A stretch of 64,000 bases of DNA from Auraticoccus monumenti (GTDB taxonomy: Bacteria > Actinomycetota > Actinomycetes > Propionibacteriales > Propionibacteriaceae): the NCBI RefSeq assembly GCF_900101785.1, contig NZ_LT629688.1, positions 1,612,001 through 1,676,000 of the forward strand. Direction: 5' to 3'. The notes beneath the pieces were generated by a model that saw only the letters and a list, made by a program, of their open reading frames with translations, was not told where the DNA came from and did no database searches. The position numbers and the translations under genes are program-made. This document shows positions 29,996-57,985 of the stretch, one piece after another. How positions within the stretch are numbered: the stretch's first letter is position 1; every line of letters starts with the position of its first letter.

Positions 29996-30012
29996 CCCCT
30001 GTAGCCGCCTCC

Positions 30013-30054
30013 AGTGCGACGTCCGGCCGGGTACTCGCGGCCAGACGTCGTACT
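30013..30054 (+). terminator. hairpin terminator of the HTTM operon
   Basis: AGTGCGACGTC-c-GGCC (30013-30028) pairs with GGCC-a-GACGTCGTACT (30039-30054): 15 pairs including one G-T wobble, one mismatch and a 10-base loop, starting 17 bases after the stop. A second perfect 18-base palindrome (30056-30073) follows at once. Confidence 0.65.
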
Positions 30055-30055
30055 G

Positions 30056-30073
30056 GCCGTGGACGTCCACGGC
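30056..30073. repeat. perfect 18-base palindrome
   Basis: GCCGTGGACGTCCACGGC reads the same on both strands and abuts the terminator hairpin. It could reinforce termination for the convergent transcription here, or be a protein-binding site; there is no further evidence. Confidence 0.5.
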
Positions 30074-30178: not shown

Positions 30179-30872
30179 GTGGCGACTGGCCCCGATGTGT
30201 CGTCACGCCCCGGCAGGAGGCGACGGGTAGGGGCGACTGGTCCCACGAGGTGGTGGCGAGTCGCTCTGCCACCGAGCTGGGGACGGGGGCCGGCCTGGTC
30301 CCAGCCCACGCCGTCGTCGACAGGGGTGGTGGTGGCGACTGGCCTGGATGTGTCGTCACGCCTGGGCGCGAGGCGACGGGTAGGGGCGACTGGCCCCAAG
30401 AAGCTGGAGAGTCGCCGTGCCGCCGAGCAGGCGACTGGCCTCGCGAGGTCGTGGGGAGTCGCCGCCTCCCACCGAGCTGGGACGGGGGGTAGTGGTGGCG
30501 ACTGGCCCCGATGTGTCGTCGCGCGTCGGTGGGAGGCGACGAGTTGGGGCGACTGGCCCCGCGAGGTGGTGGGGAGTCGCCCTCCCACCGAGCTGGGACG
30601 GGGGGTGGTGGTGGCGACTGGCCTCTATGTGTCGTCACGCCTGGGCGCGAGGCGACGGGTAGGGGCGACTGGCCCCGAGAAGCTGGAGAGTCGCCGTGCC
30701 GCCGAGCAGGCGACTGGCCTCGCGAGGCGGTGGCGAGTCGCCCTGCCCACCGAGCTGGGGACGGGAGTGGTGGTGGCGACTGGCCTCGATGTGTCGCTAG
30801 GCCTGGGCGCGAGGCGACGGGTAGGGGCGACTGGCCCGAGAAGCTGGAGAGTCGCCCTCCCACCGAGCTGGC
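30179..30872. repeat. intergenic tandem array, five units of 113-163 bases
   Basis: Units start at GTGGCGACTGG at 30179, 30332, 30495, 30611 and 30773. Each contains ATGTGTCG, GAGGCGACG, GGGGCGACTGG and GAGTCGCC followed by CACCGAGCTGG; units 2 and 4 carry an additional GCCGAGCAGGCGACTGG block. Unit lengths are not multiples of three, no frame keeps the same peptide across units, and there is no start site, so I treat it as noncoding. The core GGCGA-S-TCGCC is palindromic around one base. Reversed, the element order matches the 52.2 kb array. Confidence 0.8.
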
Positions 30873-50986: not shown

Positions 50987-52030
50987 GTGACCGTGGCCCG
51001 AGCCGAGTCCGATCGGTCGGCGCTCGACGCGGGGTCCGTCCTCGCGACGGACACGGCATCTCCCGACAGCCGGGACCGGCTGGAGGCCGACGTCCGTCGC
51101 CGCCTCGAGCGGGTCGAGACCGGTCTGCTGGCGGCCGCCGAGGCCAACAGCGACCTGGTCACCGAGGCCGCCCAGCACATCATCCGCTCCGGCGGGAAGC
51201 GCTTCCGCCCGCTGCTGGTGGCCACCGCCGCCGGCCTCGGTGAGCAGGTCGCCGAGGACGCCCTCGTGGTCGCCGCCGAGGTGGTCGAGCTGACCCACGT
51301 CGCCAGCCTGTACCACGACGACGTGATGGACGAGGCCGAGGTGCGCCGGGGCGCGGAGAGCGCCAACCAGCGCTGGCAGAACAGCATCGCCATCCTGGTC
51401 GGGGACTACCTCTTCGCCCGGGCCAGCGACCTGGTGGCCGACCTCGGCCCGGTGTGGGTGCAGCTCCAGGCGCGCACCTTCGCCCGGCTGGTGCAGGGCC
51501 AGATCGCAGAGACCGTCGGGCCCGCCGCCGGTGACGACCCGCTGGAGCACCACCTGCGGGTGCTGGCGGACAAGACCGGCTCGCTGATCGCCACCTCCTG
51601 CGTCTTCGGCGGCATGACCGCCGGGCTCTCGCAGCCCGAGCTGGACGCCCTCGGTGCCTACGGCGAGGAGATCGGTCTGGTCTTCCAGCTCAGCGACGAC
51701 CTGATCGACATCACCAGCGACCAGACCGGCAAGGAGCCCGGCACCGACCTGCGGGCCGGGGTGCCGACGCTGCCGACGCTGATGCTGGCCGGCTCCGACG
51801 ACCCCGAGGACCGGGCGCTGACCGAGCTGATCGGCTCCGACCTCAGCGACCCCGACCGGCTGGACGAGGTGCTGACCCGGCTGCGCGCCCACCCCGTCAT
51901 CGGCCGGGCCCGCGACCACGTCCGCGGCCGGGCGGCGACGGCCCAGCAGCACCTGCAGCAGCTCCCCGACCGGGCCGCCCGCGCCGCCCTGGCCGAGATC
52001 GCCGACCAGCTCGTCGACCGCGTCCACTGA
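50987..52030 (+). CDS. long-chain polyprenyl diphosphate synthase (probable menaquinone tail synthase)
   Basis: A 347-residue trans-prenyltransferase with both aspartate-rich motifs: LYHDDVMDEAEVRRG (DDxxD) and FQLSDDLIDITSDQTGKEPG (second DDxxD), plus GGKRFRP for IPP binding. The residues before the first motif (HVASLYHDD) are small, as in long-chain (C35-C50) enzymes; exact chain length cannot be read. It starts 8 bases after nuoN, which favours the quinone side chain over other isoprenoids. GTG with GAGGTGAGG upstream. Confidence 0.9.
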   Translation: MTVARAESDRSALDAGSVLATDTASPDSRDRLEADVRRRLERVETGLLAAAEANSDLVTEAAQHIIRSGGKRFRPLLVATAAGLGEQVAEDALVVAAEVVELTHVASLYHDDVMDEAEVRRGAESANQRWQNSIAILVGDYLFARASDLVADLGPVWVQLQARTFARLVQGQIAETVGPAAGDDPLEHHLRVLADKTGSLIATSCVFGGMTAGLSQPELDALGAYGEEIGLVFQLSDDLIDITSDQTGKEPGTDLRAGVPTLPTLMLAGSDDPEDRALTELIGSDLSDPDRLDEVLTRLRAHPVIGRARDHVRGRAATAQQHLQQLPDRAARAALAEIADQLVDRVH

Positions 52031-52061: not shown

Positions 52062-52130
52062 GTCGAGTGCGCCCGGACCGTCGTCGGCCCCGTCGTCCGG
52101 GCGACGATCCCGCCGCAGTGACGGCAGCGG
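52062..52130. repeat. left 69-base direct repeat flanking the 52 kb array
   Basis: Matches 52912-52980 at about 60 of 69 positions, including a shared CCCGTCGTCCGGGCGACGAT. It starts 31 bases after the polyprenyl synthase stop. Confidence 0.75.
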
Positions 52131-52215
52131 TGGGGCCCACCGCCAGCGCCTTGCCTGAGGCCTCGCCCACCAGCTCGCGGACTTCCGCCCACCAGACGCC
52201 TGAAGCGTCCGCCTC

Positions 52216-52895
52216 GTCGGGCGGCGACTCGCCCCGCGACGTCGCCTCAGCCGCTCCCGATCCGACTACTCGCGGCCACTCGCCACTGCTGGTGGACGTC
52301 CTGGACCCGGGACCCTCCACGTGCCCACGCCCGCACCCTCCCACCCCGTCGGGCGGCGGCTCGCCCCAGGACGTCGCCTCAGCCGCTTTCGATCCGACCA
52401 CTCGCGGCCACTCGCCACTACCGGCGGACGTCCCGGAGCCGAGCCGCCACGTCCTACGCCCGCACCGTCCCAGCTTCGTCGGGCGGCGACTCGCCCTAGG
52501 ACGCCGCCCGAGCCGCTCTCGGTGCGACCACTCTTGGGCACTCGCCACTGGCGGACGTCCTGGGCGTGGGAGCGGCCACGTGCCCTACGCCCCTCCAGTC
52601 CCACCTCGTCGGGCGGCGACTCGCCCCCGGACGTCGCCTCAGCCGCTCTCGGTGCGACCACTCGCGGCCACTCGCCACTGACGGACGTTCCTGGACCCGG
52701 GAGCGGCCACGTGCCCACGCCCGTCCAGTCCCACCCCGTGGGGCGGCGACTCGCCCCGTGACGTCGCCTCAGTCGCTCCGGATACGACCTCTTGCGGCCA
52801 CTCGCCACTGACGGACGTCCCGGACCCGGGCCCCCTCACGCGTGACGCCTGCACCGTCTGAGCTCCGGCGGGCGGCGACTCGCCTTCGGACGTTG
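52216..52895. repeat. intergenic tandem array, five full 130-base units plus a partial sixth
   Basis: GTCGGGCGGCGACTCGCC-type unit starts occur at 52216, 52348, 52478, 52608, 52738 and (diverged) 52867: spacings 132, 130, 130, 130 and 129. Each unit holds GGCGACTCGCC, GACGTCGCCTC, a GACCACTC-type block and GGCCACTCGCCACT. Since 130 is not a multiple of three, any frame shifts from unit to unit, and open frames here on either strand carry no start signals. It is noncoding as far as I can see. The minus-strand order of elements matches the 30.2 kb array. Confidence 0.85.
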
Positions 52896-52911
52896 GCGAC
52901 GCGCTGGAGCC

Positions 52912-52980
52912 GTCGAGTGCGGCCGTTTCGTCGTCGGTCCCGTCGTCCGGGCGACGATCGGGCCGCAGTGGCCGCAGCGG
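52912..52980. repeat. right 69-base direct repeat flanking the 52 kb array
   Basis: Second copy of 52062-52130 in the same orientation with about 9 mismatches; it ends 28 bases before the promoter of the amidase leader ORF. Confidence 0.75.
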
Positions 52981-53020: not shown

Positions 53021-53083
53021 ATGAGCGAAGCACGCGGTCGGTCCGAGCTGAGCCCGTCGTCGTCTGACGGGGCGCGCTCGTGA
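53021..53083 (+). CDS. 20-codon leaderless ORF coupled to the amidase gene
   Basis: ATG at 53021 sits 6 bases after a TAGGCT -10 box. The frame runs 20 codons and its TGA (53081-53083) overlaps the amidase GTG as GTGA. The peptide is Ser/Arg-rich with no recognisable motif. The amidase itself has no good ribosome site, so its translation may depend on ribosomes finishing this ORF. Confidence 0.45.
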   Translation: MSEARGRSELSPSSSDGARS

Positions 53084-54498
53084 GCGGGCTGTCCCCGCTC
53101 GGGGTGCGCGACCTCGCCGCCGCGGTCCGCTCTGGCGAGGTGAGCGCGGTCGAGGTGGCCGAGGAAGCCCTCGCCCGCGGGGAGCAGCTGGGTACCGCCC
53201 TCGGGGTGTTCGTCGAGACGACTCCCGACCTGGCGCTCCGGCAGGCGGCGGAGACCGACCGGCGGCTGCGCACGGAGCCGGACCGGGTGGGCCCGCTGGC
53301 GGGGGTGCCCTGTCCGGTCAAGACCCTCAGCCGCGTGGCCGGGGTGGCGACCCACGGGGGCAGCGGTGCGCTGGACCCGGTGGTGCCCGACGTCGACGAC
53401 GGGGTGGTCACGCTGCTCCGCGAGGCCGGCACCACGATGACCGGCACCACCTCCGCGCCCGAGCTCGGCCTGCCCTGCTACACCGAGCCCGAGGGGCTGC
53501 CACCGGCGGCCACCCCCTGGGACCCGGACCGCTCGGCGGGCGGGTCCAGCGGCGGTGCGGCGGCGGCGGTCGCCGCCGGCCTCGCCCCGGTGGCCTCCGC
53601 CAGCGACGGCGGCGGCTCGATCCGCATCCCGGCCGCCTGCTGCGGGTTGGTCGGGCTCAAGCCGACGCGCGGTCTGGTCTCGGCCGGACCGTGGGGCCAG
53701 CCCGGCCCGGGGCTGGTCAGCCAGGGGGCGCTGACCCGTGACGTCGCCGACACCGCCCTGCTGCTGGACGTCCTGGCCCACCCCTGGCCCGGGGACGCAC
53801 CGGTCGGACGTCCGGGCTCCTTCCTGGCCGCCCTGCAGCGTCCGCCGGGGCGGCTGCGGGTCGGCGTGCTGACCGAACCCCTGATCGCCGCCGACGCGCC
53901 GGTGCACCCGGGGGCGCTGCGGGCGGTGGCCCGCACGGCGGCGTCGCTGGAGGCCCTCGGGCACTCCGTGGAGCCGCTCACCCGACCTTTCGGGCCGGAG
54001 GCCTGGCTGCCGTTCCGGGCGCTGTGGGCCGTCGGTGCCCTGTCCGCACCGGTCCCCGCCGACCGCGAGCACCTGCTCCGACCGCTGACCCGCTGGCTCC
54101 GTGGGCTCGGCCGGGAGGTGGCCGGGCTGGAGTACGCCGAGGCCGTCCGGGCCACGCAGGTCCTCACCCAGCAGGTGGGTACGGCCTGGCAGCACGTCGA
54201 CGTGGTGCTGACCCCGACGCTGGCGCAGCCGCCCTGGCGGCACGGGGAGGTCCGCGACGACGACGACCCGGCCGCGGACTTCCTGGCCCAGACCGCCGTC
54301 ACGCCGTGGTCCAGCGTCTGGAACATCACCGGGGCGCCGTCGATCAGCCTGCCGCTGCACACCGAGGTGGTGGACGGCGTACGGCTCCCCTTCGGCGTGC
54401 TGCTGGGGGGCCGTGCGGGTCGCGACGCCGAGCTGCTCGCCCTGGCCGCCCAGCTCGAGCAGGCCGACCCGCCCGAGCCGCTGCCGTTCCTGCGCTGA
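53080..54498 (+). CDS. amidase signature family protein
   Basis: A 472-residue amidase-signature hydrolase. The Ser-cisSer-Lys triad is visible: Lys in GVPCPVKTLSR (about residue 80), the Gly/Ser-rich AGGSSGGAAAAVAAGLAP with the first Ser, and ASDGGGSIRIPAACCGLVGL with the nucleophile Ser. It hydrolyses an amide or a related substrate that sequence does not reveal. It is unlikely to be GatA because no gatC or gatB lies nearby. The GTG start is coupled to the upstream leader ORF. Confidence 0.88.
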   Translation: MSGLSPLGVRDLAAAVRSGEVSAVEVAEEALARGEQLGTALGVFVETTPDLALRQAAETDRRLRTEPDRVGPLAGVPCPVKTLSRVAGVATHGGSGALDPVVPDVDDGVVTLLREAGTTMTGTTSAPELGLPCYTEPEGLPPAATPWDPDRSAGGSSGGAAAAVAAGLAPVASASDGGGSIRIPAACCGLVGLKPTRGLVSAGPWGQPGPGLVSQGALTRDVADTALLLDVLAHPWPGDAPVGRPGSFLAALQRPPGRLRVGVLTEPLIAADAPVHPGALRAVARTAASLEALGHSVEPLTRPFGPEAWLPFRALWAVGALSAPVPADREHLLRPLTRWLRGLGREVAGLEYAEAVRATQVLTQQVGTAWQHVDVVLTPTLAQPPWRHGEVRDDDDPAADFLAQTAVTPWSSVWNITGAPSISLPLHTEVVDGVRLPFGVLLGGRAGRDAELLALAAQLEQADPPEPLPFLR

Positions 54499-55900: not shown

Positions 55901-57877
55901 GTGAGCGAGCCGTCGTGGGGAGCACCGGAGGACCGCGAGCCCCCGGAGGACTGGGAGCCCCCCGAGGACTGGGAGCCCCCGCAGGACTGGGTGGCACCGC
56001 AGCACCGGGGCGGGCACGAGGACGCCCCGGGAGCGGGCTCCGCGGGGGCGCCGGTCCCTCTCGTGGCGGAGCCGGTCCCGGCCCGCACCCCGTCGGAGGC
56101 GCTGCAGCGCGTCTGGGGCTACGACGCCTTCCGTGGCCAGCAGGCCGAGATCGTGGACACCGTGGTGGCCGGCGGGGACGCCGTGGTGCTGATGCCGACC
56201 GGTGGCGGCAAGAGCCTCTGCTACCAGGTGCCGTCGCTGGTGCGTGCCGGCACGGGGGTGGTGATCAGCCCGCTGATCGCCCTGATGCACGACCAGGTGG
56301 ACGCGCTGGAGCAGGTCGGCGTCCGTGCGGCCTACCTCAACTCCAGCCAGGACCCGGACCAGCGCCGCGACGTGGAGCGACGGCTGCTGGCCGGGGAGCT
56401 GGACCTGCTCTACCTCGCCCCGGAGCGGCTCGGCGCCGCGACGGGTCTGCTCCAGCGCTGCCGGATCGCGCTGTTCGCCATCGACGAGGCCCACTGCGTC
56501 AGCTCCTGGGGCCACGACTTCCGCCCCGAGTACCTGCAGCTCTCGGTGCTGCACGAGCGCTGGCCCGACGTCCCGCGGATCGCCCTGACCGCCACCGCGA
56601 CCGTGGAGACCCGGGCCGAGATCGCCGAGCGGCTGGCCCTCACCGACGCCCGGGTCTTCGTCTCCAGCTTCGACCGGCCCAACATCCAGTACCGGATCGC
56701 CCCGAAGAACGACGCCCGCAACCAGCTGCTCCGGCTGCTGCGCGAGGAGCACCCGGGGGAGGCCGGCATCGTCTACTGCCTGAGCCGCGCCTCGGTGGAC
56801 AAGACCGCGGAGTGGCTGGCCGGCCAGGGCGTCACCGCGCTGCCGTACCACGCCGGCCTGGACGCCCGGACGCGCTCGCTGCACCAGTCCCGGTTCCTGC
56901 GCGAGGACGGCGTGGTGATGGTGGCCACCATCGCCTTCGGGATGGGCATCGACAAGCCCGACGTCCGCTTCGTGGCCCACCTGGACCTGCCGAAGTCGGT
57001 CGAGGGCTACTACCAGGAGACCGGTCGGGCGGGACGCGACGGGCTGGCCTCCACCGCCTGGCTGGCCTACGGGCTGCAGGACGTGGTCCAGCAGCGCCGG
57101 ATGATCGCCGAGGGCGAGGGGGACCGGCAGCGCAAGCGGGTCCAGACCCTGCACCTGGACGCGATGCTGGCCCTCTGCGAGACGGTGGAGTGCCGGCGTC
57201 AGCAGCTGCTGGCCTACTTCGGGGAGGAGAGCGGGCGCTGCGGCAACTGCGACACCTGCCTGTCCCCGCCGGAGTCCTTCGACGGGACGGTGCCGGCGCA
57301 GAAGCTGCTCTCCACCGTGGTCCGGCTGCAGCGCGAGCGGGGGCAGGCCTTCGGGGCCGGGCACCTAGTCGACATCCTGCTCGGCAGGGACAACGAGCGG
57401 GTGCGGAAGTTCCGCCACGACCAGCTCTCCACCTACGGCATCGGCACCGAGCTGGACGACGCCGGCTGGCGCGGCGTGGTGCGCCAGGTGCTGGCCCAGG
57501 GGCTGCTGGAGGTGCAGGGGGAGTACGGGGTGCTGGCGGTCACCGAGCCGGCGCTCGCGGTGCTGCGGGGCCGGCGGGAGGTGCGGCTGCGGAAGGAGCA
57601 GCAGCGGGAGCGGGTGCAGCGTAGCCGGAGGACCGGGGCGGCCCCACCCGACCTGGACGAGGACGCCCAGGCGCTGTTCCAGCGGCTGCGCACCTGGCGG
57701 TCCCAGGTGGCCAAGGAGCAGGCGGTGCCGGCCTACGTCGTCTTCTCCGACGCCACCCTGGCGGGCATCGCCGGTGCCCGTCCGACCACCGAGGCCGAGC
57801 TCCGCGCCGTCTCCGGGGTCGGGGAGGCCAAGCTGACCCGCTACGGCGAGGCCGTCCTCGAGCTCCTGGCCACCTGA
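55901..57877 (+). CDS. recQ: RecQ family ATP-dependent DNA helicase
   Basis: A 658-residue 3'-5' DNA helicase. Motif 0 [13 protein letters not shown], Walker [17 protein letters not shown], Walker [21 protein letters not shown], motif [14 protein letters not shown], motif [20 protein letters not shown] and motif [15 protein letters not shown] are all present. A zinc-binding region ([23 protein letters not shown], given by its last part GRCGNCDTC), a winged helix and a C-terminal HRDC domain ([19 protein letters not shown]) follow. Residues 8-32 contain tandem PPEDWE repeats, an unusual N-terminal addition. Leaderless GTG start. Confidence 0.93.
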
Positions 57878-57918: not shown

Positions 57919-57985
57919 GGAGGCGACTGGCCGCGTGCTGTCGCCTCCGGTGAGGACGAGGCGACCACCCGGGGCGACTCGCCAC
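57919..57985. repeat. single short copy of the GGCGACTSGCC repeat family, with hairpin
   Basis: GGCGACTGG, a GTCGCCTCC block, GAGGCGACC and GGCGACTCGCCACC follow one another in the order seen in the 52 kb units. The first part forms a perfect 9-base stem (57919-57927 with 57940-57948) and a 12-base loop, so here the element could act as terminator between the convergent recQ and peptidase genes. Confidence 0.6.

Follow-up and report, generated by a model that had tools for sequence, protein, structure and literature searches.

A dispersed family of rigid 62-bp dyad elements, clustered in tandem arrays, in the genome of Auraticoccus monumenti

The array at 52 kb and its neighbours

The window analysed here, a stretch of 64,000 bases from the genome of Auraticoccus monumenti, carries near 52 kb an array of five tandem units (52167-52814; start spacings 132, 130, 130 and 130 bases) that occupies the 1,049-base gap between a polyprenyl synthetase gene (PF00348) and an amidase gene (PF01425). 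Gene boundaries and gaps, here and below, are those of a simple purpose-made gene caller. TRF delimits the array as 52215-52884, with a period of 130, 5.1 copies, 80% matches and a score of 728, in agreement with the earlier note, which had described five units of about 130 bases between these two genes. The direct repeats that it saw on either side are also present, at 52062-52130 and 52912-52980, with a measured identity of 87% over 69 bases; they are not the ends of one composite element, but copies of a second dispersed family described below. Long open frames cross the array, without codon support. The features of the locus, all on the + strand, are as follows.

50987-52030, +, polyprenyl synthetase (PF00348), upstream neighbour
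52065-52120, +, family-2 dyad element (56 bp) in the left bounding repeat, family-2 match
52223-52284, +, family-1 dyad element, array copy 1, 62-bp pattern match
52355-52416, +, family-1 dyad element, array copy 2, 62-bp pattern match
52485-52546, +, family-1 dyad element, array copy 3, pattern match with 3 mismatches, the most among the five
52615-52676, +, family-1 dyad element, array copy 4, 62-bp pattern match
52745-52806, +, family-1 dyad element, array copy 5, 62-bp pattern match
52874-52884, +, sixth copy, truncated after its left box, left-box match
52915-52970, +, family-2 dyad element (56 bp) in the right bounding repeat, family-2 match
53080-54498, +, amidase (PF01425), downstream neighbour

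The best 80 named relatives of the polyprenyl synthetase belong mainly to the Propionibacteriaceae, followed by Nocardioides and Nonomuraea. In the genome of a species of the same genus, the aligned ends of the two flanking genes are 26 positions apart, a distance too short for the array.

The 62-bp element and its copies

The conserved object within each 130-base unit is a 62-bp dyad, GGCGASTSGCC-N7-GTCGYC-N14-GRCGAC-N7-GGCSASTSGCC, in which a half-site of about 26 nt, with the consensus GGCGASTSGCC-SCGAGNN-GTCGYCTC, is present twice in inverted orientation; we refer to it as family 1. The window contains 19 occurrences of the 11-mer GGCGACTSGCC where 0.87 would be expected, and none of 100 shuffles reaches that number. 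Three family-1 loci lie in the window (30181-30836, 52223-52806 and 57922-57983), and the copies outside the array at 52 kb are these:

30181-30242, +, family-1 element of the second array, 62-bp pattern match
30334-30395, +, family-1 element of the second array, 62-bp pattern match
30497-30558, +, family-1 element of the second array, 62-bp pattern match
30613-30674, +, family-1 element of the second array, 62-bp pattern match
30775-30836, +, family-1 element of the second array, 62-bp pattern match
57922-57983, +, solitary family-1 element between convergent recQ-like and M13 peptidase genes, 62-bp pattern match

The array consensus gives at least 32 match rows in its own genome among the best 40 of 91 candidates, and within that set the matches at other loci fall inside query positions 1-88, mostly 6-70, of 126. 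The genome-wide search proposed in the earlier note, which held that absence of the unit elsewhere would count against a defined element, thus has a divided outcome: the 130-base unit as such is absent from other loci among the candidates scored, while its 62-bp core, with at most 3 mismatches, is found at 89 places per strand in the 4.46-Mb genome (reversed-pattern control 0). A slightly looser pattern, with at most 5 mismatches, matches 95 places at 28 loci (control 0) in 227,028 bases, made up of the window and 28 stretches fetched around matches, to which the count of copies with 4-5 mismatches applies. Loci hold from 1 to 10 copies. A 63-bp copy in L013 stands outside the 95 and was added by hand to the counts of context and position, which for that reason comprise 29 loci and 30 gaps.

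Two smaller observations belong here. In L060 (2974-3086) two family-1 elements overlap, with one 11-bp terminal box in common and starts 51 bp apart; and near the start of the recQ-like gene in the window there is an 18-bp tandem repeat (55925-56002), its period a codon multiple.

Genomic context

No element lies wholly within a called gene, and at loci outside the window none overlaps one. The 30 gaps that hold elements comprise 12 between convergent, 15 between co-directional and 3 between divergent genes; for the 214 background gaps of the sample (minimum length 40 bases) the numbers are 34, 125 and 55, respectively. The excess of convergent gaps (12 of 30 vs. 34 of 214, not length-matched) has a p of 0.0044, and the deficit of divergent ones is not significant (p 0.068). 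Where the flanking genes are co-directional, the elements are closer to the 3' end of the upstream gene in 13 of 15 cases. Along the chromosome the positions of family 1 do not depart from uniformity (KS, p 0.52).

Pfam matches were obtained for 54 of the 59 flanking ORFs, mostly to metabolic, transport and regulatory families, the remaining five having none at E 0.001. No neighbour gene common to the 59 is evident, and at the same threshold none of them belongs to a transposase or integrase family. Two encode DUF222-HNH proteins. DUF222 is present at 12 places in the genome (13 matches, two of them in one gene region), of which two are within 3 kb of a family-1 locus, so that a link with family 1 is not significant (binomial p 0.086) and was set aside; none of the 12 is near a listed place of the second or third family. 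One of these DUF222-HNH genes, close to a family-1 array in L017 (1-1512; genome 2931121-2932183), matches in two separate stretches and is perhaps a broken copy.

Fixed length and conserved boxes

The length of the element is held almost to the base pair. With the spacing left free between 58 and 68, a length of 62 is seen in 99 of 110 rows, a count over both strands, the other 11 having other lengths; convergent half-sites within 30-120 bp of each other form 106 pairs, of which 94 are at exactly 62 and two each at 61 and 63. Of 225 half-sites scoring at least 10 bits, 37 are without a partner at 62 bp. Lengths other than 62 may be under-represented in these figures, since the loci were fetched by the consensus or by the 62-bp pattern. 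Across 400 kb of the same genome, sampled at roughly even intervals, three half-sites reach a score of 8 bits and none 10.

Between loci, the 26 box positions are 93.5% identical, while the ten central bases, at 34.7%, are near the chance level of 32.6%. The 14 middle positions are intermediate (44% against 27% by chance), so some of the likeness between loci may be due to descent. Inside arrays, the boxes have diverged less than the non-box positions in all 21 arrays with two or more copies (Wilcoxon p ~1e-6). This box divergence is biased low, because the copies were collected by box match; the bias looks limited, however, since decayed half-sites are few, 210 of the 234 that score at least 8 bits still scoring at least 15. 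Judged from the sequences, the conservation of the boxes probably reflects selection on sites in place. At positions 6 and 8 of the half-site, 371 of 380 cells hold C or G, yet the two arms are not matched there; a protein that reads bases could produce such a pattern.

The earlier note had preferred a defined element to random slippage, and the recurrence of the 62-bp core at 28 loci with conserved boxes bears this out. An ordinary functionless tandem repeat produced by slippage would fit the likeness of inter-element sequence within many arrays (mean difference 7-57% by array), and it would fit the finding that at other loci the matches to the array consensus hardly extend past the element, as expected from tandem duplication; but the recurrence of one core at 28 loci, with a central spacer near chance between boxes of such high identity, tells against it, and for the core it is contradicted by the 89 places in the genome. 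We consider slippage very improbable indeed.

Other dyad families

The bounding repeats of the 52-kb array are copies of a second family, a 56-bp dyad composed of GAGTGCG-CC-G-CGTCG and its inverse, found with at most 3 mismatches at 7 places (control 0) and as 55-bp forms at two further places. The exact pattern gave no match in 26 other relatives.

A third family (CASAACCGGTC-CTCAGC-GAC plus its inverse) gives at least 36 match rows in its own genome, among the best 40 of 54 candidates and with some places counted on both strands, and no match in the same-genus genome, in a search that scores at most the best 40 candidates. At 22 fetched loci it forms 53 pairs, 37 at 68 bp and 16 at 69 bp, with no other distance between 40 and 130, and the two lengths are largely two subtypes. 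These alternate strictly at three loci that have four or five copies each (L054, L197 and L199) and in a four-copy cluster of L204, whereas L214 is all 69 bp and L215 all 68 bp; the alternating array of L054 lies at 1009-1464. The arms of the 68-bp subtype do not covary (median p 0.93 for positions 1-22 and 0.15 for positions 23-34). Its two central bases are paired in 84% of copies against 40% across loci, a single-position contrast with no p value of its own; of 37 copies, 19 have AT there and 7 have TA. The same-genus genome has a family of its own of about 68 bp, with at least 14 match rows, in which a place is often counted once per strand, and none in the genome studied here.

Further dyads were seen in passing. 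Beside the second array in the window (30005-30062) there is a different dyad, CCAGTGCGACGTCCGGCC-N10-GGCCAGACGTCGTACTGG, and short palindromes that resemble it by eye occur in L078 and L060. An intergenic array in L094 (18439-19614), following a small ORF that by eye is like ribosomal protein bL28, is built of dyads of about 70 bp, ACTTCGCCCCGTCT...AGGCGGGGCGAAGT, and possibly represents a further family.

Pairing between the arms

Folded as RNA, the family-1 elements have a median energy of -34.2 kcal/mol, with a z of -3.1 against dinucleotide shuffles and 73% of elements below a z of -2. A signal of this kind can follow from the consensus dyad itself, without selection on pairing. When the arms of an element are compared with arms from other loci (other-length candidates from the free-spacing scan being left out), own-arm pairing is no better than cross-locus pairing, with a median p of 0.65 in the middle, 0.97 in the boxes and 0.81 for positions 25-31; and native elements gain no stability over chimaeras that combine the arms of different loci, the native minus chimaeric energy being +0.9 kcal/mol (p 0.49). 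Arms without covariation do not support selection for a hairpin. The covariance check that the earlier note suggested is thus negative, and its proposal of a structured RNA is disfavoured further by Rfam, 4227 families of which gave no match at the gathering score over the window.

A folded RNA or single-stranded DNA hairpin, acting as a transcription terminator, an mRNA-stabilising REP or similar, would agree with the position of the elements 3' of genes, with their enrichment between convergent genes and with the low folding energy. On the lack of covariation and of any energy gain over chimaeras it was rejected as the main cause, and the rigid length and the Rfam result also speak against it, as does the third family, which likewise lacks covariation apart from the two central bases of its 68-bp subtype. 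We regard this explanation as improbable.

Distribution and the question of mobility

Family 1 was not found in any other genome searched. With at most 2 mismatches it gave no match in 56 other genomes, one of them of the same genus; its exact pattern gave none in viral contigs, nor in a genome-contig collection that may omit this genome or near ones; and a single 611-base query matched nothing in phages and plasmids. The surroundings of the polyprenyl synthetase in named relatives (80 loci, 536,518 bases) contain no half-site of at least 10 bits. A sample of about 410 kb from the same-genus species holds six half-sites at 8 bits, three at 10 and none at 12. The absence of family 1 from that species argues against an essential role in the host. 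Among titles and abstract openings, with few subscription journals covered, we found no account of such repeats in Propionibacteriaceae.

These results bear on the suggestion of the earlier note that the array might be a non-autonomous mobile element, which fits the dispersal over 28 loci and the absence from relatives; no candidate mover is found among the 59 flanking ORFs or, in the form of a Y1 transposase, in the genome. In its fuller form, the explanation would be a selfish replicator like a REPIN or MITE, with inverted 26-nt ends recognised by a transposase encoded elsewhere, the conservation of the boxes representing only what the mover can copy. The chromosome-wide dispersal of family 1 and its restriction to one of the genomes searched agree with this, as do the coexistence of several families in this genome, the separate family of the same-genus species, and the gap between the polyprenyl synthetase and amidase genes, at most some tens of bases there vs. 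about 1,050 here. It is opposed by the lack of RAYT, the Y1 transposase (PF01797), which has no match in the genome although the control search gave matches in 5 of 14 named genomes, and a RAYT link was rejected. Nor does any flanking ORF match a transposase or integrase family, although the DUF222-HNH type is represented twice, and the lower divergence of the boxes also holds between the copies within a single array, whose probable origin is duplication in place. A selfish replicator is possible but, in our judgement, rather unlikely.

Comparison with known repeat systems

MITEs are short, non-coding and dispersed, with inverted ends, and 62 bp would be unusually short for one. Family 1 is like them in all four respects; it differs in that no transposase family is represented among its 59 flanking ORFs. 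A CRISPR array, in which unique spacers would separate near-identical repeats, was also considered and rejected, the stretches between the elements of the 52-kb array differing by only 17% on average.

According to the main text of PMC3733652, in which the words actinobacteria and Streptomyces do not occur, REPs are palindromes of 20-40 bp that carry at one end an unpaired tag, GTAG or CGTC. The GTAG- and CGTC-tagged superfamilies of REP/BIME are described there as intergenic, for the most part 3' of genes, in gaps whose neighbours are convergent or co-directional; REPs form inverted dimers and clusters repeated in tandem together with flanking DNA, with several families per genome, some of them species-specific, and those of CGTC type apparently have no dedicated transposase (PMC3733652). 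As far as that account goes, family 1 resembles REP/BIME in being extragenic and 3' of genes, in its tandem clusters and inverted dimers, and in the number of families. It differs from them in its rigid 62-bp dyad, which bears no sign of selection on pairing, and in having no conserved tag like GTAG or CGTC: the dyad begins with GGCGA at both ends, and CGTC appears only within the 35% of half-sites that have C at position 18.

REPINs, in the passages of PMC3116915 that treat them, accompany RAYT genes and commonly show compensatory changes. Family 1 shares with REPINs, so described, a variable spacer of set length flanked by inverted, conserved ends (the 94 of 106 pairs at 62 bp), the dispersal through one genome and the clustering, and it differs in lacking both PF01797 in the genome and compensatory changes between the arms. 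Since its distribution is REP-like and it departs from REPINs on these two points, we file family 1 as a variant of the dispersed-palindrome repeats.

Interpretation

The earlier note had left three options for the array: a structured RNA, a non-autonomous mobile element and an array of protein-binding sites. The last fits best, given the rigid length, the conserved half-sites and the lack of covariation between arms, although the binding itself is inferred. We suggest that the array is a cluster of REP-like, dispersed 62-bp sites that would be bound by a putative protein, and that it grew by tandem duplication; on present sequence data this proposal has, in our estimate, about an even chance of being correct. 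Each half-site would be contacted by one subunit or dimer of a putative sequence-specific DNA-binding protein encoded elsewhere, which would recognise the half-sites in duplex form, with the two halves kept in register by the constant spacing of 62 bp. Single elements would seed new locations through some copying step, and arrays would then enlarge by local tandem duplication of an element with its flank, after which selection would retain the boxes and the remainder would drift. Such retention might reflect either a benefit to the host or a selfish drive.

The putative protein may move the sites, as a transposase-like enzyme would, or use them, for instance in chromosome organisation or termination, and both may hold. 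The turnover of sites between species speaks for moving, the constraint on boxes in place for use.

The usual explanation for small dispersed palindromes is a hairpin mobilised by a RAYT transposase. Here a similar distribution is found without RAYT, in a case where the length is fixed to the base pair and conservation follows two independent half-sites, not pairing. A 62-bp bait with about 26 fixed positions would offer a testable handle on the binding protein. The families tested are not common to two species of one genus, which suggests that such repeat sets can turn over quickly. Tentatively, and as something we think less probable than the binding of family 1 itself, the genus may carry a fast-evolving system of several families of long, rigid dyad sites, each with its own length (62; 56; 68 and 69 bp), kept and spread as double-stranded sites by sequence-specific proteins. 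If true, this would be a chromosome-wide site system outside the world of RAYT and REPINs, and each species would have its own set of sites.
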